Positions 7,481-57,602 of a DNA stretch of 64,000 nucleotides are shown here, piece after piece. The notes beneath the pieces are model-generated. The model was not told the origin of the DNA. It made no database searches and was given only the letters and a program-made list of their open reading frames with translations. A program made the position numbers and the translations under genes. Every line of letters begins with the position of its first letter. Positions within the stretch are counted from its first letter, which is position 1. This stretch comes from Plantactinospora mayteni. GTDB lineage: Bacteria > Actinomycetota > Actinomycetes > Mycobacteriales > Micromonosporaceae. Where the stretch lies: contig NZ_BONX01000023.1 in the NCBI RefSeq assembly GCF_016862935.1, positions 186,001-250,000 of the forward strand, read 5' to 3'.

Positions 7481-7562
7481 TCGCGATCCGGGTCGATCCC
7501 GGACCTCCCGGTTCAGCCGTCGTACCTCGCGATCCGGGTCGATCCCGGGGCTGCCGGTTCAG
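7481..7562. repeat. 46-bp-period direct repeat on the DUF402 stop codon
   Basis: Two copies of a ~36-bp unit, 46 bp apart: an identical TCGCGATCCGGGTCGATCCC core (7481-7500 and 7527-7546), then a diverged stretch, then GGTTCAG (7510-7516 and 7556-7562). The second copy holds the minus-strand stop codon (7559-7561) of the DUF402 gene. Each core contains a CCGGG-tcgat-CCCGG mini-hairpin that could terminate the convergent genes. Confidence 0.8.
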
Positions 7563-8212
7563 CGTGCGGGTGGGCGGTCCCAGCCGGGCGGCAGGTCCGG
7601 CGGGGTCCAGGCCGGGTCGGGGACGAAGTCGCACCAGGTGCCGTCGAACGGGAACTGCGCCGCCTCGGCGATCTTGATCACCCGCTCCCCCTCGGCCCGT
7701 ACCGCGGCCGGGTCCGGCACCCAGTAGTGCTCCGGCAGGGCGAGCCGCTCGGCGAACTCGTCCTCGTCCTTCCACTGCCAGGTGTGGTCCGGCCAGACCA
7801 CCACGTCGAGGTCCTGGTCCAGCACGTCGACGCCGGCGAGTATGCCGTCGTCCCAGCGGACGCCGTGCTCCTCGAGGTTGACGTACCAGTTGGCGAACTG
7901 GTCCGCCGCGTCCCGGAAGAACCAGACCGAGTGGTTGGCACCGGTCGGCAGGAACTTCAGCACCGGCGGCCCGGCCCAGGTGGCGACCCGCAGCCGGTAC
8001 GTCGAGGCGACCCACTCGGTGAACGGCATCGTCCGCATCCCGCGACCGTCCGCGGTGACCTCGCTGGCCACCTGGGTGCCCCGGGCGACCCAGAGCAGCA
8101 GACCACGGTCGTCGTCGCTGACCACCCGGGCCGGCCGGACCCAGCCGATCCGGCCCCGCCGCACGTTGCGGTGCACGATGACGCGGCCCGGTGCGAAGCG
8201 CATCCCGGTCAC
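7559..8212 (-). CDS. DUF402 domain protein (nucleotide phosphatase-like)
   Basis: 217-aa protein of the DUF402/FomD-like family; characterised relatives hydrolyse nucleoside or nucleotidyl phosphate esters with divalent metal. The fold signature is visible: HSVWFFRDAADQFANWYVNLEE, then DDGILAGVDVLDQDLDVVVWPD and WKDEDEF, which supply the acidic metal-binding residues. An in-frame ATG at 8203 is an alternative start. It lies alone between lacI (convergent) and proS (same strand, 39 bp apart). Substrate not inferable. Confidence 0.85.
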   Translation of the reverse strand: MTGMRFAPGRVIVHRNVRRGRIGWVRPARVVSDDDRGLLLWVARGTQVASEVTADGRGMRTMPFTEWVASTYRLRVATWAGPPVLKFLPTGANHSVWFFRDAADQFANWYVNLEEHGVRWDDGILAGVDVLDQDLDVVVWPDHTWQWKDEDEFAERLALPEHYWVPDPAAVRAEGERVIKIAEAAQFPFDGTWCDFVPDPAWTPPDLPPGWDRPPAR

Positions 8213-8251
8213 GCCGTCCTGCTCCGCTGCGCCATGTGGCTGTCCGGCCGG

Positions 8252-9658
8252 TCAGTAGGAGCGTGCGAGGATGGCGGTCAGCTCCGGCTCGTCCTCCGAG
8301 TCCGGCACCGAGCCGTCGGCCCGGCGCAGGCAGCGCACGGTCACGGCCTTGGCGTTCGCCTCGGCCTCACCCTCGGCCCCGACCGCCGACCACGGCACCC
8401 GGGCCCAGCCGGTGGCCGCCGCCTCGATCGCCTCGGCCAGCGTCTCCACCGAGACGGTGTGCGACTCGCGCCGGGCCAGCGCCTCGTCGTAGAGCGTCTT
8501 CTGGTCGGCGTCGAGCGCGGCGAGTACCCCGGCGACCACGTCCGGCACCGGGACCGGGGTCTTGGCGCCGGTGGTCCGGCGGACCAGCACCGCGTTACCG
8601 GCGGCCAGGTCGCGGGGACCGAGTTCGACGCGTACCGGATAGCCCTTGAGTTCGGCGTCGACGGCCCGGCGGCCGAACGGGGTGTCCACCCGGTCGTCGA
8701 GGGCGACCCGGACCCCGGCGTCGCGCAGCGCGTCGCAGAGCTTCGCGGCGGCCTCGGCGACGCCGTCGCCGGCCTTGACCACCATCACGTACGCCTGCAC
8801 CGGCGCCAGCCTCGGCGGCACCCGCAGCCCGTTGTCGTCGCCGTGACACATGATCAACCCGCCGAGCATCCGGGTCGAGCTGCCCCAGGAGGTGGTCCAG
8901 GCGTGCTCGACGCTGCGCTCGGCCGACGTGTAGGTGATGTCGAAGGCGCGGGCGAAGTTCTGCCCCAGCTCGTGCGAGGTGCCCATCTGGAGCGCCTTGC
9001 CGTCACCCATCATGCCTTCCAGGGTGTAGGTGCGGGTGGCACCGGCGAACCGCTCCCGGGCGGTCTTCAGCCCGACCAGCACCGGGATGCCGAGCACCCC
9101 GACCATGAAGTCCTCGTAGACCTCGTGCAGGATCTTCCGGGCGTACGCCCGCGCGTCGGCCTCGTCGGCGTGCGCGGTGTGCCCCTCCTGCCAGAGGAAC
9201 TCGCTGGTCCGCAGGAAGACCCGGGGCCGCAGCTCCCAGCGCACCACGTTGGCCCACTGGTTGAGCAGCAGCGGCAGGTCGCGGTAGGAGTCGACCCACT
9301 TCGCCATGAACTCGCCGATCACCGTCTCGCTGGTCGGCCGCACCACGACCGGCTCGGCGAGCTGCTTGCCGCCACCGTGGGTGACCACCGCCAGCTCGGG
9401 CGAGAAGCCCTCGACGTGCTGCGCCTCCCGGCGCAGGTAGCTCTCCGGGATGAAGAGCGGGAAGTACGCGTTCTCCGCGCCGGCGAGCTTGATCCGGGCG
9501 TCCATCTCGGCCTGCATGCGCTCCCAGATGGCGTAGCCGGCCGGTCGGATGACCATGGTCCCCCGCACCGGCCCGTTGTCGGCGAGCTGCGCCTTGGCGA
9601 TCAGGTCCTGGTACCAGCGGGGGAAGTCCTCCGCACGGGGAGTGAGCACGCGTGCCAT
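8252..9658 (-). CDS. proS: prolyl-tRNA synthetase, archaeal/eukaryote-like type
   Basis: Charges tRNA-Pro with proline. At 468 aa it is the compact ProS form lacking the INS editing domain of the E. coli-type enzyme. Class II motifs are readable: motif 2 region RWELRPRVFLRTSEFLWQEGH, the proline pocket around LQMGTSHELGQNFARAF, and motif 3 GSSTRMLGGLIMCHGDD; the anticodon-binding domain follows and the chain ends ARSY, the C-terminal Tyr typical of this class. Start at ATG 9658 gives the normal N-terminus. It is downstream of the amidohydrolase gene (132 bp). Confidence 0.95.
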   Translation of the reverse strand: MARVLTPRAEDFPRWYQDLIAKAQLADNGPVRGTMVIRPAGYAIWERMQAEMDARIKLAGAENAYFPLFIPESYLRREAQHVEGFSPELAVVTHGGGKQLAEPVVVRPTSETVIGEFMAKWVDSYRDLPLLLNQWANVVRWELRPRVFLRTSEFLWQEGHTAHADEADARAYARKILHEVYEDFMVGVLGIPVLVGLKTARERFAGATRTYTLEGMMGDGKALQMGTSHELGQNFARAFDITYTSAERSVEHAWTTSWGSSTRMLGGLIMCHGDDNGLRVPPRLAPVQAYVMVVKAGDGVAEAAAKLCDALRDAGVRVALDDRVDTPFGRRAVDAELKGYPVRVELGPRDLAAGNAVLVRRTTGAKTPVPVPDVVAGVLAALDADQKTLYDEALARRESHTVSVETLAEAIEAAATGWARVPWSAVGAEGEAEANAKAVTVRCLRRADGSVPDSEDEPELTAILARSY

Positions 9659-9791
9659 GAGGGCACATCTTAGGCGTCGACACCGGAGCCGACGCGCCCG
9701 GCCCGCTGCCGCGCGCCCACCGTCCCCGCCGTCCCCGACGCCCCACGGCCTGGACGGGCTCGACGAGACGCGGCGCGGGCGGCCCCGGGGT

Positions 9792-10871: not shown

Positions 10872-10958
10872 GGGCACATTCCTACCCGATCGGGATCGGC
10901 CCGCCCGCCGCACCCCGGCATGCCCCGCCGAGGATCACGCCCCGGACACCGGTGACAC

Positions 10959-11004
10959 CGCCCCGGCCGCGCTCGACGTCACGCCCCGGCCGCGCTCGAC
11001 GTCA
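10959..11004. repeat. 23-bp tandem repeat after ffh
   Basis: Two contiguous, essentially identical 23-bp units (10959-10981, 10982-11004; core CCCCGGCCGCGCTCGACGTC), followed by a decayed third copy (CGCCTCGGCGCGG). They lie about 50 bp beyond the ffh stop in the 184-bp ffh-amidohydrolase spacer. Confidence 0.8.
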
Positions 11005-11055
11005 CGCCTCGGCGCGGCCCCGCAGGCCAGCCCACGCGCACGCTCTCTGCCACTA

Positions 11056-12597
11056 TCACTTCTCGTTCGGGCGCTTGCCGAGCTTGTTGAAGTCGAGCTT
11101 CGGCAGCTTGAAGCCGGGCGGCAGGCCCTGGCCGCCCTGGAGCGCGTTCGGGTCCAGCCCCGGCGGCAGCTGCGGCATGCCGGCCGGGAAGCCGCCGGCC
11201 GGACCGCCGACCCGGGGCCGACCGCCGCCCTTGGTGCCCTTGCGCTTGTTCTTCGGCGACTTGGTCGCCTTGCGCCGGCCGCCGGGCAGGCCCATCATGC
11301 CGCCCATCTGCTTCATCATCTTCTGCGCCTCGGCGAAGCGGTTGAGCAGTTGGTTGACGTCCATCACGGTGACCCCGGAGCCGGTCGCGATCCGGGCCCG
11401 CCGCGAGCCGTTGATGATCTTCGGGTTGGTCCGCTCGCCGGGGGTCATCGACCGGATGATCGCGGTGACCTTGTCGAAGTGCTTGTCGTCGACCTCGGCC
11501 AACTGGTCCTTCATCTGCCCCATCCCGGGCATCATGGCCAGGACGTTGGCGATCGGGCCCATCCGGCGTACCGCGATGAGCTGGTCGAGGAAGTCCTCCA
11601 GGGTGAACTGCTCGCCGCCCATCAGCTTGGCGGTCATCTTCTCTTTCTGATCGGCGTCGAAGGCCTGCTCGGCCTGCTCGATCAGCGTGAGCACGTCACC
11701 CATGCCGAGGATCCGGCTGGCCATCCGGTCCGGATGGAAGACGTCGAAGTCGGTCAGCTTCTCGCCCGTGGAGGCGAAGAGGATCGGCTGACCGGTGACC
11801 TGCCGTACGGAGAGCGCGGCGCCGCCACGCGCGTCACCGTCGAGCTTCGAGAGCACCACGCCGGTGATCCCGACGCCGTCCCGGAACGCCTCGGCGGTGC
11901 GTACCGCGTCCTGACCGACCATCGCGTCGATCACGAAGATGACCTCGTCCGGGTCGACCGCGTCCCGGATCGCGGCGGCCTGCGCCATCATCTCGGCGTC
12001 GATACCGAGCCGGCCGGCGGTGTCGACGATGACGATGTCCCGGGCGGCCCGGCGGGCGTGCTCGATCGACGCCTTGGCGACCTGGACCGGGTCGCCGACC
12101 CCGTTGCCCGGCTCCGGCGCGAAGACCTCCACCCCGGCCCTGCCGCCGAGCACCTGCAACTGGTTGACCGCGTTGGGGCGCTGGAGGTCGGCGGCGACCA
12201 GCAGCGGCTGGTGCCCCTGCCCCTTCAGCCAGCCGGCCAGCTTGCCGGCCAGGGTCGTCTTACCCGAGCCCTGGAGGCCGGCGAGCATGATCACCGTCGG
12301 GGGCTGCTTGGCGAACTGCAACCGGCGACCCTCACCGCCGAGTACGGCGACGAGTTCCTCGTGGACGATCTTGATAACCTGCTGGGCCGGGTTGAGCGCC
12401 TGCGACACATCGGCGCCCCGGGCCCGCTCCTTCACGCTGTTGATGAAGGACTTGACCACGGGCAGGGCGACGTCCGCCTCCAGCAGCGCCAGCCGGATCT
12501 CCCGGGCGGTGGCGTCGATGTCGGCGTCGGTGAGGCGACCCTTGCCACGCAGCTTGGTGAAGATCCCGGACAGGCGGTCACTCAAAGTGTCAAACAC
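11056..12597 (-). CDS. ffh: signal recognition particle protein Ffh
   Basis: SRP54 GTPase that, with 4.5S RNA, brings nascent membrane and secreted proteins to FtsY. 513 aa: N domain (1-90), G domain with G1 GLQGSGKTT at about 107-115, DTAGR, and the TKLD-type motif present as SKLDG; then a Met-rich M domain (MMPGMGQMK, MMKQMGGMMGLPGGRRK) that binds signal peptides and RNA. The C-terminal tail is long, basic and Gly/Pro-rich, as in other actinomycetes. Its receptor gene ftsY lies about 10 kb away in this window. Confidence 0.97.
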   Translation of the reverse strand: MFDTLSDRLSGIFTKLRGKGRLTDADIDATAREIRLALLEADVALPVVKSFINSVKERARGADVSQALNPAQQVIKIVHEELVAVLGGEGRRLQFAKQPPTVIMLAGLQGSGKTTLAGKLAGWLKGQGHQPLLVAADLQRPNAVNQLQVLGGRAGVEVFAPEPGNGVGDPVQVAKASIEHARRAARDIVIVDTAGRLGIDAEMMAQAAAIRDAVDPDEVIFVIDAMVGQDAVRTAEAFRDGVGITGVVLSKLDGDARGGAALSVRQVTGQPILFASTGEKLTDFDVFHPDRMASRILGMGDVLTLIEQAEQAFDADQKEKMTAKLMGGEQFTLEDFLDQLIAVRRMGPIANVLAMMPGMGQMKDQLAEVDDKHFDKVTAIIRSMTPGERTNPKIINGSRRARIATGSGVTVMDVNQLLNRFAEAQKMMKQMGGMMGLPGGRRKATKSPKNKRKGTKGGGRPRVGGPAGGFPAGMPQLPPGLDPNALQGGQGLPPGFKLPKLDFNKLGKRPNEK

Positions 12598-13477: not shown

Positions 13478-13509
13478 CCCGCTCTCCTCCCCGGTCATCT
13501 CCCCTCCCG

Positions 13510-13563
13510 TCAGCCCCGCGCCTCGGCTCAGCCCCATGCCTCAGCTCAGCCCCGCGCCTCGGC
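13510..13563. repeat. 18-bp x3 tandem repeat carrying the kinase stop codon
   Basis: Three contiguous 18-bp units (13510-13527, 13528-13545, 13546-13563). Units 1 and 3 are identical (TCAGCCCCGCGCCTCGGC); unit 2 differs at three positions. Unit 3 holds the last kinase codons and its stop. Read on the minus strand each unit is five codons plus TGA (AEARG-stop, AEAWG-stop, AEARG-stop), so the gene 3' end is triplicated in frame. Confidence 0.9.
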
Positions 13564-16527: not shown

Positions 16528-16626
16528 GCCCTAGACGATCCCGCCCGCCGGGCCCGGCGGCGTCGCCCCGCGAGCGACCTCCGATCTACGCCCGCTGACG
16601 TAGTCGGCCGGACCCTGGCGACGCCG

Positions 16627-16750
16627 GTTCAGCCGGCGGCGGCCCGCGCCCGTGCGACGATTCAGCCCGGCGGGTGCGGCGGTTCAGCCGGCGGCGGTCA
16701 GAGCCCGCGACGACTCGGCCCGGCCGGCCCGCCAGTTCAGCCGGCGGCGG
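16627..16750. repeat. ~54-bp repeat ending on the glnD stop codon
   Basis: The 16-bp core GTTCAGCCGGCGGCGG occurs identically at 16627-16642, 16682-16697 and 16735-16750, with spacings of 55 and 53 bp and related sequence between. The last copy encodes the glnD C-terminus and contains its minus-strand stop (16737-16739). A decayed core (ATTCAGCCCGGCGGG) lies near 16660. Confidence 0.85.
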
Positions 16751-19148
16751 CCAGCACGGCGGCCTCGACCCGGTCCCGCTCGGCCTCGTCGGGCCAGCTT
16801 CCGACCAGGTAGAAGGCGTCGACCACGTCGCCGCCGAGGGTGGAGATCCGGGCTGCCCGCACCTGGGCGCCGGCCTCGTCCAGCGCGCTGGTCACCCGGT
16901 AGAGCAACCCGCCCGCGTCGGCGGCCCGCAACTCCAGCACGACGGCGTCGGTGGCGGCGGCCCGGTGCCAGACCACCCGGGGTGGCGAGCCGCCGCCCCG
17001 GGCCGCCAGCGCACGGCCGCGCAGCCGCTGGGTCACCGAGACGTCGCCGGTGACCGCCCGGCGCAGGTCGGCGGCGAGCGCGACCGGATCCGGCGGGGTG
17101 CCGTAGCGGGGCTGCACCAGGAACTCGACCAGGGCGGTCTCCTCGACCATGCTGGCGTCGGCGGCCAGCACCTCCAGCCGGTGCAGGGCCAGGCATCCGG
17201 CGACCGCGGCGAGCAGCCCCCGCCGGTCCGCCGCGGCCACCGCCACCCGGTCCCCCTCCAGGTGTACGGCCGGCAGCGGCCCCGCCACCAGCGCCGGATC
17301 CGGGGTCGGCGGCTCGGGGAGCTGGCCGGTGTCGAGCCGGGTGTGCACCCGGCGGACCAGTTCGGCGATCAGCCGGGCCTTCCAGTCCGACCAGGCGGCC
17401 GGCCCGGTCGCCTTGGCGTCGGCCCGGGCCAGCCCGTGCAGCAGGCTCAGCGTGCTGGTGTCCCGCACCGCCTCGGCCACCCCGGCGATGGTGACCGGGT
17501 CGGCGAGGTCCCGCCGGGTCGCCACCTCGGGCAGCAGCAGGTGCAGTCGGACCAGTTTCTCGATCAGCGCCACCTCGACCGGGCGCAACCCGATCCGGGC
17601 CGCGATCCGGGCCGCGATCGGCGCCCCGACCAGGCTGTGATCCCCACCCAACCCCTTGCCGACGTCGTGCAGGAAGGCGGCCAGCAGCAGCAGGTCGGGC
17701 CGGTCCACCTCGCGGGCGTACCCGGTCGCCTCGGCAGCGGCCTGCACCAGGTGCCGGTCGAGGGTGTAGCGGTGTACCGGGTTGTGCTGCGGCAGGCTGC
17801 GCATCCGGGGCCACTCCGGCAGCCAGCCGTCGACCAGGCCGTACCGGTCACAGGTCTCCCAGGTGCCGACCAGCCCCGTACCGGCGCCGAGCAGGGTGAT
17901 CAGCGCGGCCCGGGCGGCCGGTGGCCAGGGCGTCGGCAGCGGCGGACAGTACGCGGCCAGCCACTCGCAGGTGGCCCGGGCGATCGGCAGCCGGGCGCTG
18001 GCCGCGGCGGCGGCGACCCGCAGCGACAGGCTCGGGTCGGGGCGGGCCCCGATGGCGGTCCGGGCGAGCACCAGTTCGCCGTCCTGCTCGACCACGTCCC
18101 GGGCGACGGGACGGCGCAGCGGCCGGCCGTCGGCGCCCCGGCGCCGCCCCGAGCGGAGCCGGTCGGCGGCCCGCCAGGCGTCGTCCAGGGCGTGGCTGAT
18201 CGTCCGGGCGTCCCCGGCGACCTGGCGCAGCAGTGCGTCGCCCAGCTCGGCGACCCCGTTGGCCGGCCCGGCCCCGTCCGGCGGGAGTTGTCGGGGGGCG
18301 GGGTCGTCGGGTGGAAGCTGTCGGGGGGCGGGGTCGACCGTGCCGCGCCGGAGTTGACGCAGCCCGAGCAGGCCGGCGACGGTGGCCCGCTCCTGGGCGA
18401 GCAGCCGGTCGACCCGGCGGCCGACCGAGGTGTGCAGGGCGTCCCGGGTGTCCAGCATCCGCAGGTGCGCGGCCCGGACGGCCGGGCGGAGCGTGTCGCT
18501 GATCCCGGCGAAGGCGATGGCCCGAAGCAGCGCCACGTCCCGCAGGCCGCCGGCCGCCTCCTTCAGGTCGCCTTCCAGCAGGAACGCCAGCTCGCCGTGC
18601 GCCTGCCAGCGGGTCGCGGTGATCTCGCGCAGCGCCGGCAGCGCGCGTACGGCCGTCCGCCGCCACTGGTCGGCGGCGGCACCGACCAGCCGGGCCGAGA
18701 GTTCCCGGTCCCCGGCGACGTGCCGGGCGTCCAGCAGGCCGAGCGCGACCTTGACGTCGTCGTGTGCGACGGAGAGCGCCTCGGGGATGGTCCGTACCGA
18801 GTGGTCCAGCCCGAGCCGGGCGTCCCAGATCGGATACCAGAGCGCGGCGGCCAGCTCGTCCATCCCGGGCACCCCGGCGTGCAGCAGGACCAGGTCCAGG
18901 TCGCCGCAGGGGGCGCACTGTCGCCGGCCGAGCCCGCCGACCGCAACCAGGGCGACTCCGTCGGCCGAGGTCGGGTCGGCGGCGCCCCGCTTGCCGGCGG
19001 TCTCCCGCAGCCCGGCCGTGAGCAGCCCGGTCAGCCACGCGTCGAGCGCCGCCGCTCGCTGCTCGCGGGCGGCGGCGCCGATGCCGGGGATGACCAGGGG
19101 CCTCGGGTCGACCTGACCGGCGGTCAGCGGCACGGGTCCCCTGGTCAT
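16737..19148 (-). CDS. glnD: [protein-PII] nucleotidyltransferase GlnD
   Basis: Bifunctional nitrogen sensor that modifies and demodifies the PII protein (adenylylation in actinomycetes). 803 aa: nucleotidyltransferase domain with GGLGRRQ near 71-77 and DLDL near 83-86; an HD phosphohydrolase domain (LLAAFLHDVGKGLGGDHSLVG); and two C-terminal ACT domains for glutamine sensing. An in-frame tandem duplication (two DPAPRQLPPD decapeptides) sits between the transferase and HD domains and is probably neutral. ATG 19148 has GGGGGAGA upstream, 15 bp after the PII gene. Confidence 0.95.
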   Translation of the reverse strand: MTRGPVPLTAGQVDPRPLVIPGIGAAAREQRAAALDAWLTGLLTAGLRETAGKRGAADPTSADGVALVAVGGLGRRQCAPCGDLDLVLLHAGVPGMDELAAALWYPIWDARLGLDHSVRTIPEALSVAHDDVKVALGLLDARHVAGDRELSARLVGAAADQWRRTAVRALPALREITATRWQAHGELAFLLEGDLKEAAGGLRDVALLRAIAFAGISDTLRPAVRAAHLRMLDTRDALHTSVGRRVDRLLAQERATVAGLLGLRQLRRGTVDPAPRQLPPDDPAPRQLPPDGAGPANGVAELGDALLRQVAGDARTISHALDDAWRAADRLRSGRRRGADGRPLRRPVARDVVEQDGELVLARTAIGARPDPSLSLRVAAAAASARLPIARATCEWLAAYCPPLPTPWPPAARAALITLLGAGTGLVGTWETCDRYGLVDGWLPEWPRMRSLPQHNPVHRYTLDRHLVQAAAEATGYAREVDRPDLLLLAAFLHDVGKGLGGDHSLVGAPIAARIAARIGLRPVEVALIEKLVRLHLLLPEVATRRDLADPVTIAGVAEAVRDTSTLSLLHGLARADAKATGPAAWSDWKARLIAELVRRVHTRLDTGQLPEPPTPDPALVAGPLPAVHLEGDRVAVAAADRRGLLAAVAGCLALHRLEVLAADASMVEETALVEFLVQPRYGTPPDPVALAADLRRAVTGDVSVTQRLRGRALAARGGGSPPRVVWHRAAATDAVVLELRAADAGGLLYRVTSALDEAGAQVRAARISTLGGDVVDAFYLVGSWPDEAERDRVEAAVLAAAG

Positions 19149-27814: not shown

Positions 27815-28333
27815 ATGACCTGGACCGCACCCGATGTCGAGCGGCACCGCGCACCAGTGGTCGCCGACGAGCGCACCATGTTGGACGGCTGGCTCGACTT
27901 CCACCGGCAGACCCTGCTGACCAAGTGCGCCGGGCTGACCGCCGAACAGCTCCGCACCGCCAGCGTCGAACCCTCCGGGCTGACCCTGCTCGGCCTGGTC
28001 CGGCACTGCGCCGACAACGAGCGGTACTGGTTCCGGCAGCAGTTCGCCCGGCTCGACGTACCGTCGCTGTACGCCATCCCGGAGCAGCCGGACCGCGACC
28101 TGGAGGATGTCGCCGACGCCGATCCGGTGGCCGACTTCGCCATCTTCCGGGAGGAGGTCGAACTCGGCCGGCAGGCCGTCGCCGGCCGCGAGCTTGACGA
28201 CACCTTCGTCAGCCCGCGCGGCAAGGACGTCAGCCTGCGCTGGGTCTACCTGCACATGATCGAGGAGTACGCCCGGCACAACGGCCACGCCGACCTGATC
28301 CGCGAGCGCCTCGACGGTACGACCGGCGAGTAG
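27815..28333 (+). CDS. DinB-superfamily protein (DUF664)
   Basis: 172-aa four-helix-bundle protein of the DinB/DUF664 group, often thiol- (mycothiol-) dependent enzymes in actinobacteria. Metal-ligand histidines are visible in LVRHCADNERYWFR and in MIEEYARHNGHADLIRE. ATG 27815 is preceded by GATTAT at the leaderless -10 position; GTG 27809 is an alternative start. Its stop codon lies in a 19-bp tandem repeat. Specific reaction unknown. Confidence 0.88.
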   Translation: MTWTAPDVERHRAPVVADERTMLDGWLDFHRQTLLTKCAGLTAEQLRTASVEPSGLTLLGLVRHCADNERYWFRQQFARLDVPSLYAIPEQPDRDLEDVADADPVADFAIFREEVELGRQAVAGRELDDTFVSPRGKDVSLRWVYLHMIEEYARHNGHADLIRERLDGTTGE

Positions 28334-28364
28334 TCCGACCAGACCCGAGTAGTCCGACCAGCCC
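28327..28364. repeat. 19-bp x2 tandem repeat carrying the DinB stop codon
   Basis: Units 28327-28345 and 28346-28364 share CGAGTAGTCCGACCAG and differ at one base of 19; a partial third copy follows (GAGTGG). The TAG of the DinB gene (28331-28333) is in unit 1. Confidence 0.85.
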
Positions 28365-28386
28365 GAGTGGCTCGAGTGGACCGGAG

Positions 28387-30725: not shown

Positions 30726-30734
30726 GGCGCCGGC

Positions 30735-30890
30735 GCGCTCACCAGACCCTCACCGCCGAAGCGCTCAGCAGACCCTCACCGCCGAAGCGCTCAGGAAACC
30801 GTCACCGTCGAGGCGCTCAGCAGACCGCCACCGCCGAAGCGCTCAGCAGACCGTCATCGCCGGGGCGCTCAGGAGACGGTCACCGTCCAG
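30735..30890. repeat. 26-bp x6 tandem repeat ending on a stop codon
   Basis: Six contiguous 26-bp units start at 30735, 30761, 30787, 30813, 30839 and 30865, all beginning GCGCTCA and ending near CACCG; pairwise they differ at about 1-7 positions. The last unit encodes the C-terminus of the minus-strand chagasin-like protein and contains its stop (30869-30871); the other five run downstream of it. Twenty-six is not a multiple of three, so minus-strand TGA triplets fall in all frames. No spacers, so not CRISPR. Confidence 0.92.
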
Positions 30891-31321
30891 GTGACCGTCT
30901 CCGACGCCGCCCTGGCCGCCTCGTTCCCGCAGCCCTGGAAGCAGTTCGTCAGGGTGATCGCGACCTGTCCGGAACGCCGGGCGTCGAACAGGAAGTAGCG
31001 GTTGCCGCCGCCGCCCCCGGCCGCCGGCCCGAAAATCCGGTCCCTCAGGCTGTCGGAGATCAGCTCGTCCTCGACCAGCGTCACCAGGTTAGCCGGCTCG
31101 GCGGTGGCGCTCCAGTTGTCGCCGACCGAGGCGCCCCGGTCCGAGACCCGGACCGAGAAGCGGTCTCCCGACTCCACTGTGGCCGAAGTCGCCTGCCGGT
31201 CCAGGACGGTCCCGTACCGGGCGTTGCGCCGGATCGTCAGCCCGACGACCGTGGTCAGGCCGACCACCAGCACCAGGGCGAGGGCGGCGCCGACGAGCAC
31301 GAGACGCTTAGGCGAGGCCAC
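30869..31321 (-). CDS. membrane-anchored chagasin-like (I42) protein
   Basis: 150 aa: N-terminal signal-anchor (about 8-30), then one Ig-like beta domain facing outward. The order GDRFSVRVSDRG, a GDNW turn at 67-70, and a GGGGGNRYFLFDARRSGQVAITLTN strand pair (102 on) follows the chagasin/ICP plan of inhibitors of papain-like proteases (BC, DE, FG loops). Two Cys (127, 131) could form a disulfide. The canonical NPTTGYxW loop is degenerate, so inhibitory activity is uncertain. Encoded convergently to the WXG-papain cassette. Confidence 0.6.
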   Translation of the reverse strand: MASPKRLVLVGAALALVLVVGLTTVVGLTIRRNARYGTVLDRQATSATVESGDRFSVRVSDRGASVGDNWSATAEPANLVTLVEDELISDSLRDRIFGPAAGGGGGNRYFLFDARRSGQVAITLTNCFQGCGNEAARAASETVTWTVTVS

Positions 31322-35581: not shown

Positions 35582-35830
35582 GTTCCCGATCCTCGTCCGG
35601 CGCGACCGCCGGGCAGACTCGACGCTTCCCGGTCCGTCCCGCTCCCGGTCCGGTACCGCCCCGACCGCTCGTCAGCCGCTCGGCCGCGCCCGAACTCGGC
35701 GGAGATTGTGCCCCCGGCGGCGGGAGCCTGGTCAACCCGCAGGGTAACCCGGGGGCGGTCGTCCTGCTCGACGCGGCACGCAGCGACCAGCGTATCCGGT
35801 GCTCCGAAGCCCGGGTAGGACACGACCGGC

Positions 35831-35938
35831 CGCCGTACTCCCACCGGGCGCCGTACTCCCACCGGGCGGGGACGGGACCGGCGGGAGGCGTACCCGGGGA
35901 ACGGGCGTACCCGGGGAACGGGCGTACCCGGGGAAACA
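35831..35938. repeat. two tandem repeat sets upstream of smc
   Basis: Set A: two identical 18-bp units, 35831-35848 and 35849-35866 (CGCCGTACTCCCACCGGG). Set B: 17-bp units at 35889-35905 and 35906-35922 plus 15-16 bases of a third (CGTACCCGGGGAACGGG). Both lie in the 446-bp spacer (35582-36027) between the small coiled-coil gene and smc, where I see no coding sequence. Confidence 0.85.
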
Positions 35939-35943
35939 GAACT

Positions 35944-35976
35944 GCGCGCCGCCACAGATGTGTCGGCGCGCTTTTT
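35944..35976. terminator. intrinsic-type hairpin between small gene and smc
   Basis: GCGCGCCG (35944-35951) pairs with CGGCGCGC (35964-35971), followed on the plus strand by TTTTT (35972-35976). On the minus strand it lies 52 bp after the small coiled-coil gene and is followed by a weak T-rich stretch, so it may serve that gene, but the good U-tract faces the plus strand, where no upstream gene is apparent. Confidence 0.7.
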
Positions 35977-36027
35977 CTGGTGCGATTCAGTTGTCAGGCG
36001 GGGCGCCGGTTGCCCGACGCCCGGAGC

Positions 36028-36222
36028 TCAGGTCAGCGCGGGCTCGGCCAGCCGCAGCAGATCGTCTGCCTCGGCAGCCGCCGCCGCGAGCCGATCGTTC
36101 TCGGCACGCAACCGCGTCGTCTCGAACTCCAGTGCCTGAACCCTGGCACGCAGTCGGGTGACCTCGTCGAGGAGGCGCCGGTCAGGCGCCGCACCAACGT
36201 GGCCGTAGAGGGCCTTCGCCAT
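36028..36222 (-). CDS. small conserved coiled-coil protein
   Basis: 64-aa protein starting MAKALYGHV, followed by an Arg/Glu/Leu heptad stretch (about 17-55) predicting a coiled coil. ATG 36222 has a strong AAGGAG seven bases upstream. It resembles short uncharacterised actinobacterial proteins with the same MAKAL-G-V start, to my recollection. Own promoter (36337-36365) and terminator-like hairpin, so it is a stand-alone gene. Function unknown. Confidence 0.82.
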   Translation of the reverse strand: MAKALYGHVGAAPDRRLLDEVTRLRARVQALEFETTRLRAENDRLAAAAAEADDLLRLAEPALT

Positions 36223-36336
36223 ATCGTCTCCTTGTAATGCGCTGCCGGAAAGCCGGCCAACGCGCGCCCAACTCGTACGCGACTACCCGCCCGCAGGCAA
36301 ACGCGGGCATGGTCGGGCGCGACTGGCGACACTTAC

Positions 36337-36365
36337 ATAGTGTGCCGATGTCCCGGCTGAGTCAA
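36337..36365 (-). promoter_or_regulatory. promoter of the small coiled-coil gene
   Basis: Minus strand: TTGACT (-35, plus 36365-36360), 17-bp spacer, CACTAT (-10, plus 36342-36337). Consensus spacing for the main sigma factor. It implies a leader of roughly 105 nt before the ATG at 36222. The rest of the 36223-36637 gap shows no gene; CCTTATATC near 36531 may be part of a plus-strand promoter for the CAP gene. Confidence 0.6.
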
Positions 36366-36637
36366 GTTTCACCGGGGCACAGGCCACCTGTGCCGTCAAC
36401 CACTCGCTGACCGAGGGCTTGCCGCGCAGGCACGAACCAAGGCACTGTCCGGACGACGGAAGTCTATCCCCCATCGATGTCCGGATCGACGTCACCCCTG
36501 GCCAGCAGCACAATCCCGCCGGCGGGTCCCCCCTTATATCTTCCTTAGCCACGTTGCCCCCGGCTGGTGGGCCCGCGTAGCGTCCGCACGGTCAGCGACC
36601 AGGCAAAACCGGGATCCGGAAGCAACGGAGGCGCAGC

Positions 36638-37855
36638 GTGCAGGGGTGGAGCGAGCAGACCGAGTGGGAGGACGGCGGCGACAGCCTTCCCGACAACGGT
36701 GCTGCCTACCCGGCCGCCCGCGCCGGTCATCCGGATGATCCCTCCCGTCCCGGCGGGCACCCCGGCTGGCCCGACGCGCCGGACAACCCGCACGGCGACG
36801 GCCGCTGGCCCGACGAGCGGGCCGACCAGCACGGCGATGCCCGCTGGGCCGACGAGCCGGCTCGGGTCCCGGGTCCCGACGAGGAGGGCTGGGTGGACGA
36901 GGTCGCCGAGCGCTGGCGACGGGCCGGGCTCGACCGGGTGGACGAGCCGACCGAGCGGCGGGAGCATGCCGCGGCCCGCTGGGCGGACGAGCCCGCGGAC
37001 CTCGGCGCGTTCGAGCTGGGCCGGGACGCCGACGGCGGCTCGGGTCGTCGGGTACCCTCCGGCGACCGCCAGCTCGACGGCGCACGTGCCGACCGGGGCG
37101 GCTCCGGCCGGCACCGTCGACCGACCAGGTTGCGTGGCCCGGTCGGCCTGGGTGTCGCGGTGACCGCGCTGCTCGGCGTCTTCGGCGTCGGTGCGGCCCT
37201 GCTGCCGCCGAGCCTCGCCGGCTCGCCGGCCGGCAACCGCGAGGGCCAGCCGGCGGTCGAGGCGGCCGGCCCGGAGGAGTCCACGGATCTGGCGACCCCG
37301 GAGCCGACCGGGACCGCCGAGCCGACCGCCACCCCGACGCCGACCGCGACCGCCACCCGGCCGGCCGCCAAGCCCAAGGTCACCACCACCGCGCCGAAGC
37401 CGCCCCGGACGACCAGCCCGGCCGCGCCGCGTACGCCGGCCCGGTCGGGGTCCGGGGCGGGCGAGACGGGAAGCAGCCAGGAGGCGCAGGTACTCGCGAT
37501 CGTCAACCGGGAGCGTGCCGCCAACGGCTGCGGTGCGGTGGTGGTGAACGCCGACCTGGCCAAGGCGGCCCGGCTGCACAGCCAGGACCAGGGCGAGCAC
37601 ACCAACATGTCGCACACCGGCAGCGACGGCAGCGACTTCGTGGAACGTGCCCGGCGGGCCGGTTACGACCGGCCGATCGGTGAGAACGTCGCCATGGGCT
37701 ACGAGAACGCCGCCGCCGTGATGGACGGCTGGATGAACAGCTCCGGACACCGGGCCAACATCCTCAACTGCGACGCCAAGGCGATGGGGGTCGGGGTGGC
37801 CACCGGGGCCGACGGCCGGCTCTACTGGACCCAGATGTTCGGCGCGGTCGCCTGA
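36638..37855 (+). CDS. membrane-anchored CAP (SCP/YkwD) domain protein
   Basis: 405 aa. A 165-residue acidic, Asp/Arg/Gly-rich cytoplasmic region leads to one membrane helix (GLGVAVTALLGVFGVGAALL), then a Thr/Pro/Ala-rich wall-spanning linker (about 225-280), and a C-terminal CAP domain (LAIVNRERAANGCGAVVV ... GENVAMGYENAAAVMDGWMNSSGHRANIL) keeping the His/Glu cluster. GTG 36638 has GGAGG upstream. CAP proteins act extracellularly; the enzymatic role of bacterial members is unsettled. The unusually long cytoplasmic part is the odd feature. Confidence 0.88.
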   Translation: MQGWSEQTEWEDGGDSLPDNGAAYPAARAGHPDDPSRPGGHPGWPDAPDNPHGDGRWPDERADQHGDARWADEPARVPGPDEEGWVDEVAERWRRAGLDRVDEPTERREHAAARWADEPADLGAFELGRDADGGSGRRVPSGDRQLDGARADRGGSGRHRRPTRLRGPVGLGVAVTALLGVFGVGAALLPPSLAGSPAGNREGQPAVEAAGPEESTDLATPEPTGTAEPTATPTPTATATRPAAKPKVTTTAPKPPRTTSPAAPRTPARSGSGAGETGSSQEAQVLAIVNRERAANGCGAVVVNADLAKAARLHSQDQGEHTNMSHTGSDGSDFVERARRAGYDRPIGENVAMGYENAAAVMDGWMNSSGHRANILNCDAKAMGVGVATGADGRLYWTQMFGAVA

Positions 37856-43263: not shown

Positions 43264-43612
43264 CGGTACCTCACTCCCGTCGTTGCTTCGGTCGACATAC
43301 ATGATGGGCCGTCGGACCGGGTTGCTGCTCAACCAATGATGCGGTGCGGCCCGTACCCGGTCGGTGATCGCCCCGGGGACGGCGCGTCGCCAAGGCCCCG
43401 ACCAGGACGGGAACGCCCGGACGTCGCCATCGCCGCCGCCGTCGCCTCGCCGCCGATCCGCCGCCACCGTCGCCTCGCCGTCGGCGGCCGGTCGGTGCCG
43501 GCGGATCGGCGTCGGTGCCGGCCAGCGGATCACCTTGTTGCCGGCCGGCGGATCAGGGTTGGTGCCGGCCGGCGCGCGGACGGAAGGGCTGTGGCCCGGA
43601 GGTGCCGGTCGG
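43264..43612. other. 349-bp intergenic region with degenerate GC-rich repeats
   Basis: No gene seen. Near 43490-43590 the motif GGTGCCGGCCGGCGGATCA recurs three or four times in decayed form (for example around 43494, 43518, 43542 and 43568), ending near the coaD stop. The half toward 43263 should hold the promoter of the DivIVA-like gene. Confidence 0.5.
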
Positions 43613-44098
43613 TCAGGAGCCCGGGCCGAGCAGCCGCTCCCGCAGCCGCTCGCGGACCACGTCCGGTACGTGCGGCGAGACGTCGCCGCCCCACTTCGCC
43701 ACGTCCTTGACCAGGCTCGACGAGAGGAACGAGTGCAGCGGGCTGGTGGGCATGAAGAGGGTCTCGACGCCGGCCAGCCCGATGTTCATCTGGGCCATCT
43801 GCAACTCGTAGTCGAAGTCGCTGACCGCGCGCAGCCCGCGTACCACGACGCCAGCCTGCTGGGCCCGGCAGAAGTCGACCAACAGACCCTGGAACGACTC
43901 CACCCGGACATTGCCGTAGGAGCCGGTCACCTCGCGAAGCATGTCGATCCGCTCGTCGACGGTGAACAGCCCGCGCTTGGACTCGTTGATCAACACGCCG
44001 ACGATCACCTCGTCGAAGAGCCGGCTCGCCCGGCCGATGATGTCGAGGTGACCGTTGGTGACCGGATCGAAGGAGCCGGGACAGACCGCACGTCTCAC
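43613..44098 (-). CDS. coaD: phosphopantetheine adenylyltransferase
   Basis: Fourth step of coenzyme A synthesis: joins AMP to 4'-phosphopantetheine. 161 aa from GTG 44098, beginning RRAVCPGSFDPVTNGHLDII with the nucleotide-binding NGH; VVRGLRAVSDFDYE and the C-terminal SSSLVKDVAKWGGDVSPHVP are typical. The start overlaps the rsmD stop by four bases (GTGA), the common rsmD-coaD pair. Confidence 0.96.
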   Translation of the reverse strand: MRRAVCPGSFDPVTNGHLDIIGRASRLFDEVIVGVLINESKRGLFTVDERIDMLREVTGSYGNVRVESFQGLLVDFCRAQQAGVVVRGLRAVSDFDYELQMAQMNIGLAGVETLFMPTSPLHSFLSSSLVKDVAKWGGDVSPHVPDVVRERLRERLLGPGS

Positions 44099-48476: not shown

Positions 48477-48608
48477 CCCCGGCGCCCTCGGTCGGCTCCC
48501 CGGCGCCCCCGGTCGGTCTCCCCGGCGCCCCCGGTCGGTCTCCCCGGCGCCGTCGTCCGGGTGCCCCGGCACGACTTCTCGTCCGGCTTCCCCGGCAGCG
48601 TCATTCGA
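48477..48608. repeat. ~22-bp tandem repeats ending on the DAK-gene stop
   Basis: At least three strong units starting CCCCGGCGCC at 48477, 48498 and 48520, then three weaker ones (48542, 48564, 48590). The last covers GCAGCGTCATTCGAC, which includes the minus-strand stop (48601-48603). The repeats fill most of the 181-bp spacer to recG. Confidence 0.8.
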
Positions 48609-50751: not shown

Positions 50752-51222
50752 TCAGAGCGAGCGGCCGAACGAGAGGACTCCCGGCGCGTCGCGGTAGTAG
50801 CCGAAGTCCGCGATCCGCTCGTAGCCGTTGCCCTGGTAGAGGGCGATCGCCTCGGGCTGTCGATCGCCGCACTCCAGGATCAGCCGGCGCCGACCGTACT
50901 CCCGGGCGGAGCCCTCGACCGCCGACAGCACCCGCCGGGCGACGCCTCGACCACGGGCCGTCGGGGAGACGTACATCCGCTTGAGTTCGGCGACGTCGCC
51001 GCTGTCGCCGTGGGTACGCCACCCGGCGCAGCCGATCGGCGCGTCGTCCAGGTACGCCACCAGGAACGCCCCGACCGGCGGCTCGAACTCGTTCGCCGCC
51101 ACGGGTGTCTCGTCGCCCTCGCTGCCGCCGTACCGCTGCGCCAGGTCTGCCAGTGCGGCGCCGACCAGCTCCCGGGCGACCGGGGAGTCGTAGGGGACGA
51201 CGCGGATGTCCAGCTCACTCAC
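50752..51222 (-). CDS. GNAT-family N-acetyltransferase
   Basis: 156-aa acetyltransferase. Acetyl-CoA site V-ELKRMYVSPTARGRGVARRVL (Q/RxxGxG/A as RGRGVA) at about 80-100, then RLILECGDRQPEAIALYQGNGY. Resembles GNATs for small-molecule amines; substrate unknown. It is 57 bp downstream of thiL on the same strand. Confidence 0.88.
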   Translation of the reverse strand: MSELDIRVVPYDSPVARELVGAALADLAQRYGGSEGDETPVAANEFEPPVGAFLVAYLDDAPIGCAGWRTHGDSGDVAELKRMYVSPTARGRGVARRVLSAVEGSAREYGRRRLILECGDRQPEAIALYQGNGYERIADFGYYRDAPGVLSFGRSL

Positions 51223-51262
51223 CCGGTGAAGGGTACGACCCTCGCCCGCACCTCCACCGACC

Positions 51263-51283
51263 GGTCAGCGGTCAGCGGTCAGC
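51263..51283. repeat. 7-bp x3 tandem repeat on the thiL stop
   Basis: GGTCAGC three times in a row (51263-51283). The minus-strand stop of thiL (51279-51281) is in the third copy, so TGA occurs at three consecutive 7-bp steps. Confidence 0.8.
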
Positions 51284-52217
51284 GGAAGTGTTCCCAGCCG
51301 CCCGACCCCTTGTAGGCCCGGCCGTCCACGGTCACCCCGGCGCCGTGCACCACGTGACCGATCAGCCGGAAGCCGCCCGGCAGCGGCAGGTCCTCCGGGA
51401 ACGTCGCCACCAGCGCGTGGTCGTCGCCACCGCCGAGTACCCAGGCCAGCGGATCCACCCCGAGCGCGTGCGCGGCGTCCCGCATCTGCTCCGGCACCTC
51501 GAACGCGTTGCCGAGCAGGTCGATGCCGACCCGGCTGGCCGTCGCCACGTGACCGAGGTCGGCGAGCAGCCCGTCCGAGACGTCGATCATGGCGGTGGCG
51601 CCGAACCGGGCCGCCGACGGCCCCGCCCCGTACGGCACCTCGGGCCGCCGGTACGCCTCGACCAGTATCTTCGGGGTGCGGAACCCGCGCGACAGCACGG
51701 TGTAGCCGGCCGCGGCGTACCCGAGCCGGCCGGCGAGCGCGACCACGTCACCGGCCCGCGCCCCGCTGCGCGTCACCGGGGGCTGCCCGCCCAGGTCGCC
51801 GAGGGCGGTCACCGCGATGGTCAGGGTGGGACTGGCCGACATGTCCCCGCCGACCACACCCGCCCCGACCCGGGCCGCCTCCGCGGCCAGGCCGTCGGCC
51901 AGCTCCTCCGCCCACTGCGCCTCCAGGTCGGGCGGCATGCAGAGCGCGACGAGCAGCGCGGTCGGCGCCGCGCCCATCGCCGCCACGTCGGCCAGGTTCG
52001 CCGCCGCGGCCCGATGTCCGATGTCCACCGCGGACGCCCAGTCCCGGCGGAAGTGCCGCCCTTCGACCAGTACGTCGGTGGAGGCGACCACCCGGCCGTC
52101 GGGGGCGTGCACCACCGCCGCGTCGTCGCCGGGCCCGAGCAGCGTGGCGTGTCCGGTGGCGAGCCGGGCGGTGACCCGGGCGATCAGGCCGAACTCGCCG
52201 GCCCGCGCGACGCTCAC
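51279..52217 (-). CDS. thiL: thiamine-monophosphate kinase
   Basis: Makes thiamine diphosphate, the last step of vitamin B1 cofactor synthesis. GTG 52217, with GGAGG five bases upstream, gives 312 aa with the family start ARAGEFGLIARVTARLA. Mg/ATP motifs GPGDDAAVV, STDVLVEGRHF, GVVGGDMSAS and MIDVSDGLLADLG are intact. It overlaps a 52-codon upstream frame with a strong ribosome site (see 52214-52372). Confidence 0.92.
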   Translation of the reverse strand: MSVARAGEFGLIARVTARLATGHATLLGPGDDAAVVHAPDGRVVASTDVLVEGRHFRRDWASAVDIGHRAAAANLADVAAMGAAPTALLVALCMPPDLEAQWAEELADGLAAEAARVGAGVVGGDMSASPTLTIAVTALGDLGGQPPVTRSGARAGDVVALAGRLGYAAAGYTVLSRGFRTPKILVEAYRRPEVPYGAGPSAARFGATAMIDVSDGLLADLGHVATASRVGIDLLGNAFEVPEQMRDAAHALGVDPLAWVLGGGDDHALVATFPEDLPLPGGFRLIGHVVHGAGVTVDGRAYKGSGGWEHFR

Positions 52218-52696: not shown

Positions 52697-53455
52697 GTGG
52701 TGCGGACACCGGACGTGGTTGGTGCACAACCGGAAGGGGCCGACTCACCGCCGAAGGCGGCCGACTCGGCCGACTCACCGTCGGAGGCGGCCGACTCACC
52801 GTCGGAGGCGGCCGACTCACCGTCGGAGGCGGCCGACTCACCGCCGGAGGCGGGGGCGATCGGGCCGGCGGACCGGCCGAGCGGGGCCGGGCCGGACCGG
52901 ACCACCCGACAGGCGGCGATCTGGGCGACGGTGGTCGCCCTGCCGCTGACCGCCCTCGTCGCGATACTCGTCTTCGGCCAGCTCAGCCCGGACCCGGTCG
53001 AGAAGCCCGCCGCGACGCCGACCTCGGCCGCGCCCCAGGTGACCACGCCGGTGCAGATGGCCGCCCGGGAGCTGGCCGAACGGCCGGCCACGGTCTGCCG
53101 GGCCCTGCTGTCCCGGATGCCGGCCACCCTCCGCGACCTCGGCCAGCGGCCGGTCACCGCCGGCCCCGAGCAGAACGCCGCGTACGGCGACCCGGCCGTC
53201 ACCCTCGCCTGCGGAGTGGACCGGCCGGCCGTTCCGGCGGTCGCCGACCTCTGGATGGTCAACAAGGTCTGCTGGCTCACCGAACACCGCGACGGCGGTC
53301 TGGTGTTGACCACTGTGGACCGTGAGGTGCCGGTCCGGCTCAGCGTGCCGGCCGGGCAGGAGCAGTCGGTGCAGTGGGCGGCGCCGGTCTCGGAGACCCT
53401 GGTCGCCTCGGTACCGTCGGTGCCGGACGTGCCGACCGGCTGTGCCGAGGGCTGA
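52697..53455 (+). CDS. DUF3515-family membrane-anchored protein
   Basis: 252 aa. An N-terminal cytoplasmic stretch with ADSPSEA repeats (in-frame 21-bp units, about residues 22-50) leads to one membrane helix (IWATVVALPLTALVAILVFG), then an extracytoplasmic domain with three or more Cys (AACGVDRPAVP-like region, NKVCWL, TGCAEG). DUF3515 is restricted to actinobacteria, often next to ddl or thiL, with unknown function. Its stop lies in a 24-bp tandem repeat. Confidence 0.85.
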   Translation: MVRTPDVVGAQPEGADSPPKAADSADSPSEAADSPSEAADSPSEAADSPPEAGAIGPADRPSGAGPDRTTRQAAIWATVVALPLTALVAILVFGQLSPDPVEKPAATPTSAAPQVTTPVQMAARELAERPATVCRALLSRMPATLRDLGQRPVTAGPEQNAAYGDPAVTLACGVDRPAVPAVADLWMVNKVCWLTEHRDGGLVLTTVDREVPVRLSVPAGQEQSVQWAAPVSETLVASVPSVPDVPTGCAEG

Positions 53456-53491
53456 CCGCCACCACACGCCGATGGCTGACCGCCACCACAC
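53444..53491. repeat. 24-bp x2 tandem repeat carrying the DUF3515 stop
   Basis: Units 53444-53467 and 53468-53491 (GCCGAGGGCTGACCGCC...) differ at a single base of 24. The TGA of the DUF3515 gene (53453-53455) is in unit 1 and an equivalent TGA in unit 2. Confidence 0.9.
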
Positions 53492-53549
53492 CGAGGCCAC
53501 GTCTCCGATCCGGCCGACCGTCCCCGGACGGGCGGCGAACAGGCGTTTG

Positions 53550-56316: not shown

Positions 56317-57518
56317 TGACCGCCGGTGCCACCGAGGCCGGCGCCGGCACGGGTACCGGCACGGGTACCGGCACGGGCACGGGCACGAGCACCGGCATGG
56401 GCACGGACGGCAGGAACTCGCTGCTGGAGCGGGCGCTGCAACTCGCCCAGGTCGGTCGGGTCAAGGCGGCGTACCCGCTGGTCACGGAGGTGCTCCGGGC
56501 CGACCCGGGCGACAGTCACGCCCTCCAGGTGCTCGGCTACTGCTACCAGCGGGAGAGCCGCTGGGCGGACATGCTGACCGTGCTCGACATCGCGGCCCGG
56601 CGTACCCCGGACAACCCGCAACTGCAGCGCAACCGCTCCCTGGCGCTCCGCCAACTGGGCCGGATCCCCGAGGCACTCGCCGCCGCCGAGCTGGCCCGGT
56701 CCCTCGCTCCGGACGACGCCCGCAGCGAGATCGCCCGAGCCGAGGCGCTGCTGCGCGGCCGGGGTACCCGGACGGTGCTCGCCGCGCTGGCCGCGACCAG
56801 GCGGGCCAGGGAACTCGACCCGGAGAGTGTCGGGGCGCACGTCGCCGAGGGCAAGGTGCAGCGCCGGATGGCCGAGTTCCGTCGGGCCCGGACGGCGTAC
56901 CTGGAGGCGTTGCGGCTCGCTCCCGACGACCCGCAGGCGCTGCACGGCCTGGCCACCCTGGACAGCGACCGGGGCCGGGCCGTACGCGCCTCGCCGGCGA
57001 TGGCCGGGATGCTCCGGACGGTACCCACCGATCCGGTCGCGATCCGGGCCGCCACGCTCAACGCCCGACGGGCGCTCTGGCTGCTGACCGATCTCGGCTG
57101 CGTCGTACTCCTGCTCGTCGCCTTCCTGGTGGGGACGTTGCAGGAGGCGATCGGGTCCCGAACGCTCGCGGCGGCCAGCGGGGTACTGGTGGCGCTGGCC
57201 GGCGCGGCGGCCGTCCTCGCGCTGCTGCGCTGGCGGTTCGACCGGCTCTCCGCGCCGATCCGCGCGCTGGTCCTGGCCAACCGCTACCGGTTCTCCTTCG
57301 TCACCGCACCGCTGCGGCTCGCCGCGCTGCTGCTCGGCATGCTGCTCTTCACGCTCGGCCCGTATCCGCCGGTCGCGGTCGTGGTGATCGGCACGACGGC
57401 GACGATCGTGCCGCTGCTGACCCTGATCATCAGGTGGCGCAGCCGGGCCGCCGCCGAGGTCGGCCTGCTGGTCCGCCGCTGCTGGTTCCGGCTCCACCGC
57501 CTCACCCCGGGCACCTGA
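56316..57518 (+). CDS. TPR membrane protein, partner of the AAA+ ATPase
   Basis: 400 aa starting with a low-complexity Gly/Thr stretch (residues ~10-27, from 12-bp repeats), then at least three TPR units (NSLLERALQLAQVGRVKAA ... LEALRLAPDDPQALHGLA), then about four hydrophobic helices in the C-terminal half (LLTDLGCVVLLLVAFLVG, LALLRWRF region and two more). The TPR part probably docks the AAA+ protein at the membrane. No family name known to me. Confidence 0.82.
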   Translation: MTAGATEAGAGTGTGTGTGTGTGTSTGMGTDGRNSLLERALQLAQVGRVKAAYPLVTEVLRADPGDSHALQVLGYCYQRESRWADMLTVLDIAARRTPDNPQLQRNRSLALRQLGRIPEALAAAELARSLAPDDARSEIARAEALLRGRGTRTVLAALAATRRARELDPESVGAHVAEGKVQRRMAEFRRARTAYLEALRLAPDDPQALHGLATLDSDRGRAVRASPAMAGMLRTVPTDPVAIRAATLNARRALWLLTDLGCVVLLLVAFLVGTLQEAIGSRTLAAASGVLVALAGAAAVLALLRWRFDRLSAPIRALVLANRYRFSFVTAPLRLAALLLGMLLFTLGPYPPVAVVVIGTTATIVPLLTLIIRWRSRAAAEVGLLVRRCWFRLHRLTPGT

Positions 57519-57529
57519 CCGCTCAGCTC

Positions 57530-57602
57530 AGGCACCTCAGCTCGGCGCGCCTGGCCGCCCAACTCAGGCACCCTCAGCTCGGCGCGGCTGGCCGCTCGCC
57601 TC
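57530..57602. repeat. 36-37-bp x2 repeat after the TPR gene
   Basis: Units 57530-57565 and 57566-57602 begin AGGCACC and CTCAGCTCGGCGCG and continue closely similar. The stop region of the TPR gene (GGGCACCTGACC) is a related partial copy, so the 3' end is again amplified. Confidence 0.7.

Follow-up and report, generated by a model that had tools for sequence, protein, structure and literature searches.

Short tandem repeats in the soil actinomycete Plantactinospora mayteni (family Micromonosporaceae) are concentrated in the DNA that follows stop codons and are scarce at the starts of genes. They were noticed in a window of 64,000 nucleotides (the whole stretch of DNA analysed, positions 186,001 to 250,000 of contig NZ_BONX01000023.1), for which an earlier note had described short tandem repeats, differing in unit length and sequence, centred on the stop codons of at least eight unrelated genes. 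We propose, with a probability of about 0.68, that short duplications arise frequently by slippage, are tolerated after stops and are rejected upstream of genes. The arrays look like nearly harmless copying slips and not like a device for stopping translation.

Tandem arrays relative to stop and start codons

The statistics come from 864 kb of the draft genome (9.84 Mb in 123 contigs; guanine-plus-cytosine (GC) content of the window, 72%), a sample with 674 genes and 374 arrays that was taken mainly from two contigs and four contig ends and does not sample the genome at random. For gene calls a purpose-written codon-usage program was used, not a curated annotation, and arrays, unless stated otherwise, were called by Tandem Repeats Finder (TRF) at a score of at least 50. 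Among the 674 genes, arrays cross 46 stops and 7 starts (Fisher p 2e-8), compared with means of 2.0 stops and 3.0 starts in three dinucleotide shuffles of the spacers; noncoding array coverage is 8.0%, and 0.2% after the same shuffling. When the arrays touching noncoding DNA were placed uniformly, a rough model in which each array is shrunk to one unit and placed at random, 44 of 156 were found to span a stop for 17.0 expected and 6 to span a start for 17.3 expected, so that the refuting condition named in the earlier note, a lack of enrichment after correction for repeats lying in noncoding DNA, does not hold. With the window left out, 36 of 107 arrays cross a stop (13.0 expected) and 5 cross a start (13.1 expected). 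Arrays whose periods are not multiples of three, which cannot be in-frame coding repeats, span 27 stops and 1 start, and the 73 of them in spacers of up to 600 bp gave 26 stop-spanning cases for 8.6 expected and 1 start-spanning case for 8.8. In a test that uses no repeat finder, 20 of 667 genes had an echo of their 24-nt stop window in the 160 nt downstream, compared with 2/667 for start windows echoed upstream, 3/667 for mid-gene windows and a background of 0.

It is hardly credible that this pattern is an artefact of GC-rich composition, of repeat-finder thresholds or of gene calling. The GC content of 72%, the tendency of array number to drop with GC among the relatives, and the home-made gene caller, which assigned at least one probably coding array (52767-52853) to a spacer, would speak for it; this array is still in the pooled counts and is absent only from those restricted to periods that are not multiples of three. 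Against it, shuffled spacers lack arrays, the finder-free test concurs, the arrays unable to be in-frame coding keep the asymmetry, with relaxed gene calls the counts are 47 stops and 7 starts among 702 genes, and the coding tails are conserved up to the stop in congeners.

The stop codon is the edge of the repeat zone and not its middle, and in this respect the earlier description of repeats centred on stops has to be corrected. Of the 24-nt windows at position -15, 1.2% have a copy nearby; the figure rises to 3.5% at the stop itself and to 10.6% at +60, and falls to 7.6% at +120 and 5.1% at +180, repeat density peaking 30-105 nt downstream of stops. Start codons have 0.4%, and the DNA ahead of them 1.6-4.0%. 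Within spacers of up to 350 bp, array coverage is 0.218 between convergent genes (0.20-0.33 by zone), 0.176 in co-directional 3΄ flanks and 0.015 between divergent genes; for periods not divisible by three, the convergent and divergent figures are 12% and 1.0%. In co-directional spacers 26 of 74 arrays cross a stop for 10.3 expected, and 3 cross a start for 10.4. Much of the excess at stops is avoidance of 5΄ ends, and it is nearly gone in convergent spacers, where 16 of 33 arrays cross a stop for 12.2 expected (202 of 2000 simulations as high), or 22 of 43 for 15.9 when five congeners are pooled with P. mayteni (44 of 2000 simulations as high). Since stop overlap in convergent spacers is near chance, what needs explaining is the location in the 3΄ flank, to which the stop itself adds little at most. 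The earlier note had also considered tandem repeats inside genes to be few; this is true per base (1.9% of coding and 7.8% of noncoding DNA) and false by number, 218 of the 374 arrays being wholly coding.

Formation and turnover of the arrays

Of 45 arrays that span a stop, 38 have it inside their first unit. Reading several arrays by eye showed the downstream copies to be copies of the gene tail, and orthologues that lack an array have a conserved, single-copy tail up to the stop. The orthologue of gene 50752-51222 in the congener G004 has its last coding bases and stop in three copies. A duplication that includes the stop leaves the gene intact, because the first copy keeps the true tail and stop and the later copies become spacer. 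Among exact two-copy duplications, at least four additional bases match at the ends in 22 of the 38 that are noncoding and in 22 of the 39 that are coding, compared with 3.4% of simulated random duplications, and such short end homologies are those predicted for slippage between short direct repeats.

According to the mechanism that we favour, slippage between short direct repeats would duplicate short segments (12-60 bp in the exact set) in tandem all over the genome, at a rate that would be high in this lineage, and the position of the copies would decide their survival. In coding DNA nearly all surviving arrays are in frame (the period is a multiple of three in 199 of the 218 wholly coding arrays), near starts and promoters few duplications would survive, and in the ~150 nt after a stop most would be tolerated. 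Continued slippage may then lengthen, delete and swap arrays, and some spacers between once-adjacent genes may be built of copied junctions. We infer that the process is slippage during replication, and that the skew between 3΄ and 5΄ ends is due to selection and not to the local mutation rate. Slippage tolerated where the downstream copies are neutral was one of the explanations offered in the earlier note, and it is favoured by the end homologies, by the stop in the first unit, by less conserved 3΄ flanks and by an almost complete lack of sharing between species.

This last point comes from comparisons across genomes, all of which are at the species level. An orthologous spacer was available for 15 of 18 window arrays, giving 58 comparisons with five congeners: two or more copies of the unit were found in 1/58, one copy in 8/58 and none in 49/58. 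Three of these 15 arrays (13 of the 58 comparisons) reach only one copy even at home at the threshold used and are thus unscorable as shared; the others give 1/45. The repeat units are mostly private to each species, and extension, erasure and replacement of arrays would leave each species with its own units. Some array is carried in at least one of six genomes by 24 of 42 orthologous stops, and where several genomes have arrays at the same stop the listed units mostly differ. At the stop of the DUF3515 gene, for example, G006 has different units, and G001 has them 13 nt past the stop; after the stop of the TPR gene G001 has a 12-bp x5.3 array. At the sensor kinase junction the two genes overlap by 4 bases in G004, leaving no spacer, P. 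mayteni, G001 and G003 have spacers of 44-69 bp with arrays of 17-18 bp, and G006 has 27 bp and no array. Some spacers occur only where arrays do.

The same comparison of units bears on whether a single dispersed or mobile family of repeats underlies the arrays, which we regard as very improbable. As the earlier note had maintained, they are not one mobile element: no common unit family was found among the 133 units of the 864-kb sample. A gapless match of at least 80% in another array was found for 21 of the 133 units (of at least 16 bp), compared with 6-9 for shuffled units, which is the one sign of relatedness; yet the best of these matches is 0.89 and the other 20 are at 0.80-0.84, near-identical dispersed copies are absent, matches to non-orthologous congener spacers number 8/464, and in the stop-spanning cases read by eye the first unit is the gene's own tail.

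Proposed tolerance after stops and its alternatives

Arrays of this kind are not confined to P. mayteni. For its 21 relatives gene-caller training was relaxed, and most of them are represented by 40-60 kb each, with little training data behind the calls of gene starts. Taken together, these genomes have 42 stops and 16 starts crossed by arrays. Noncoding coverage is 4.4-7.8% in P. mayteni and its five sampled congeners; in the 16 other genomes it is 0-8.6%, reaching 7.4-8.6% in two other genera (G009, G012) and in one genome of another family (G036). The five congeners pooled have 19 stop-spanning arrays for 8.0 expected, and the 16 other genomes 17 for 10.8 (69 of 2000 simulations as high), with 6 start-spanning for 11.4. 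The echo of the stop window, present at 3.0% in P. mayteni, was found at 4/429 in congeners (mid-gene 3/429) and at 5/1258 elsewhere.

Sequence identity is 0.767 in the 3΄ flank (within 50 nt of a stop and more than 100 from a start) and 0.885 in the 5΄ flank (within 50 nt of a start and more than 100 from a stop), and this faster divergence of 3΄ flanks by substitution favours tolerance. Several observations weigh against this reading. At 51-100 nt past stops, where repeats are densest, identity is 0.841, and the difference between 3΄ and 5΄ flanks is ~14-fold for repeats and ~2-fold for substitution divergence. The 3΄:5΄ skew is alike in exact (23:5) and diverged (42:8) arrays, counts that exclude the 14/42 exact and 35/85 diverged arrays lying outside short spacers. 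In the pooled congeners starts are not avoided (8 start-spanning arrays for 7.7 expected), and G006 shows no difference between convergent and divergent spacers (0.052 and 0.054); P. mayteni is the strongest case, and its clear avoidance of starts is absent from the congener sample. Arrays are present in at least three of six genomes at 9 of 42 stops for 5.2 expected (p 0.007, convergent neighbours being counted twice). The end homologies may be overestimated where a partial third copy is present or the local sequence is repetitive. Finally, the periods of spacer arrays lean to multiples of three (47/103), which suggests that some of these arrays are missed coding repeats.

Gradual purging by selection was rejected, as young and old arrays have equal skew. 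Equal skew in exact and diverged arrays means either that selection at 5΄ ends is immediate or that gene ends mutate more. In the latter case gene ends would be a mutational hotspot, through transcription termination, positive supercoiling or replication-transcription conflict, strongest between convergent genes. We consider this possible, with well under half the probability given to tolerance. It would account for convergent spacers being the densest, for a skew that is already full in the youngest arrays, for certain stops being hit repeatedly, for a repeat skew larger than the substitution skew, and for congener stops being enriched though starts are not avoided. However, end homologies are as frequent in coding as in noncoding duplications, so a special process is unnecessary, 3΄ flanks are less conserved in substitutions as well, and selection against insertions in promoters could be immediate. 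We hold equally tentatively a view of the whole genus in which transcription would make 3΄ ends, and above all convergent ones, hotspots of slippage, so that gene tails would keep entering spacers and once-overlapping genes would gain spacers from copied stop-start junctions.

Two repair functions were considered. Loss of NucS mismatch repair as a mutator was rejected: PF01939 was found in every one of the 7 genomes of the genus and in 40 of the 41 altogether. For end joining, Ku (PF02735) was matched in 37 of the 41 genomes; two of the four genomes with no match were sampled (G019 and G020) and are low in repeats, the Ku-positive G025 and G031 are also low, and GC content confounds the comparison.

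What, then, of a function for the arrays? They might be kept for gene expression, by stacking stops, by termination, by protection of the mRNA 3΄ end or by coupling, as the earlier note had suggested for termination, 3΄-end stability and coupling. Such a positive role is not borne out by our tests, and we judge it improbable. The periods of stop-spanning arrays ignore the reading frame (remainders of 0, 1 and 2 modulo three in 16, 12 and 14 arrays; 16/42 multiples of three), and a second in-frame stop within 30 codons is not more common in flanks with arrays (29/79) than in array-free flanks (97/318; p 0.34). Stacked stops were rejected on these two grounds. No hairpin beyond composition was detected either, the mean folding z being -0.36 with arrays (79 flanks) and -0.98 without (160 of the 318; p 0.03); a hairpin or terminator role was discarded, because array flanks fold less strongly. 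The arrays are, moreover, not conserved between species. What favours a role in expression is that arrays sit after stops, that some units hold a stop-start junction such as ATGA, that there is modest recurrence at the same stops, and that array length in the Mycobacterium tuberculosis complex is reported to correlate with expression of the next gene (PMC2734929).

Arrays of the window and known repeat systems

The window has 34 arrays at the TRF cut-off, 15 inside called genes, 6 across called stops and none across called starts. Eight of the nine genes named in the earlier note carry an array across the stop, as had been reported; the exception is the DAK/FakA-like gene, where the 22-bp x3.5 array (48477..48551, minus strand) begins 50 nt past the stop at 48601, a degenerate copy extending to 48566. 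On the minus strand, a 46-bp x2 duplication (87%; 7472..7563) spans the stop at 7559 of the DUF402 gene 7559-8212 (PF04167), and was missed by TRF and found by another method; an 18-bp x3.0 array (13510..13563) spans the stop at 13546 of the HisKA_3 sensor kinase, and a 53-bp x2.5 array (16622..16754) that at 16737 of the glnD-like gene. The convergent spacer at 30728..30891 is filled by a 26-bp x6.1 array, also on the minus strand, which spans the stop at 30869 of the chagasin-like gene, has units similar to the coding tail of that gene and starts 3 bp past the facing stop at 30725. The thiL stop at 51279 is spanned by a 7-bp x3.4 array (51262..51285, minus strand) with a score of 48, below the cut-off of 50; the nearest named relative of this gene is from Plantactinospora endophytica (96%). 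On the plus strand, a 19-bp x2.3 array (28327..28368) spans the stop at 28333 of the 'DinB' gene, whose top Pfam match is the mycothiol-S-transferase MST with DinB_2 second, and a 24-bp x2.0 array (53444..53491) spans the DUF3515 stop at 53455. The repeat of the TPR gene, thought to be partial, is a full case, with a 37-bp x2.6 array (57500..57595, plus strand) across the stop at 57518. Among ten called genes checked against Pfam, nine agree with the names first given (thiL and glnD by domain only), and gene 30336-30725 had no Pfam match.

Other arrays lie past stops without crossing them: a 23-bp x2.4 array (10959..11013, minus strand) 43 nt past the stop of gene 11056-12597, a 24-bp x3.3 array (43497..43574, minus strand) 39 nt past that of gene 43613-44098, and an 18-bp x2.8 array (59485..59531, plus strand) 100 nt past the stop at 59385. 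The 21-bp x4.1 array (98%) at 52767-52853, placed in a spacer by the gene caller, probably codes for a seven-residue repeat of DUF3515, since from 52697 onwards the frame of DUF3515 is uninterrupted and reads through the array as an AADSPSE-like repeat ahead of a hydrophobic stretch. The long divergent spacer at 35581-36893 runs contrary to the rule for divergent spacers in holding three arrays (16, 18 and 17 bp; 35627-35935), and a fourth, at 36765-36860, falls within the right-hand gene if its start is called at 36638.

In G004 (L063-L065) an 18-bp x7.8 array lies past the stop in the 3΄ flank of the orthologue of gene 60212-60967, and at the orthologous stop in P. mayteni and G006 there is no array within 150 nt. 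The 3΄ flanks of glnD in G004 and G005 (L063-L068), and sites elsewhere, carry a distinct element, a dispersed hairpin of ~55-60 bp with arms like AAGGAAGGGCCCCTT and AAGGGGCCCTTCC around TTATCGCTTTTTGTA. All eight sampled sites (six in G004, one in G005 and one in G022) are within 150 nt past a called stop, and in G005 glnD the hairpin appears to provide the TAA stop. A strict pattern of it matches 138 times in G004, 135 in G002, 42 in G016, 22 in G003 and 12 in G005, and not once in the other 36 of 41 genomes, P. mayteni included. At gathering thresholds, Rfam gave no match in the window or in L065.

The P. mayteni arrays have head-to-tail units of ~6-100 bp in at least two copies, as minisatellites do, and they resemble bacterial minisatellites and variable-number tandem repeats (VNTRs) in having units of ~7-80 bp that are private to a locus, variable between species and found both within and between genes. 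They differ in that their positions were mapped against stops and starts and show a steep excess on the 3΄ side, and they are known here at the species level, their density being compared with 21 relatives only. Palindromic units, or repetitive extragenic palindromic (REP) sequences and bacterial interspersed mosaic elements (BIMEs), are often found in 3΄ flanks; these are dispersed intergenic palindromes of shared sequence, whereas the P. mayteni arrays are private direct repeats that fold weakly. Some mycobacterial interspersed repetitive units (MIRUs) lie at stop-start junctions. MIRUs are likewise intergenic tandem units of actinobacteria, but no shared unit was found for the P. mayteni arrays. 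MIRU is described as a named unit family at 41 sites (PMC2734929). In the rnc-fpg1 spacer of the M. tuberculosis complex (ETR-F/VNTR3239), 279-358 bp of direct repeats begin 40 bp past a stop, where most other mycobacteria have just a few bases between the genes (PMC2734929). That case concerns one locus of one complex and a reported correlation with expression, and ours dozens of loci with no sign of function. Judging by titles and abstract openings, none of the papers listed in our searches describes an enrichment of tandem repeats at stop codons or 3΄ flanks of bacteria; the closest of them concerns intergenic TAACTGA direct repeats in Beggiatoaceae (PMC4679880).

What do these arrays tell us about the genome? 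They caution that repeats at 3΄ ends in GC-rich genomes require no function, and they are a source of typing markers. The genome of P. mayteni is a natural map of the tolerance to small insertions, with repeats covering 22% of convergent and 1.5% of divergent spacers. It shows spacers growing from copied gene tails, and it allows a test between a higher mutation rate at gene ends and a merely weaker constraint there.

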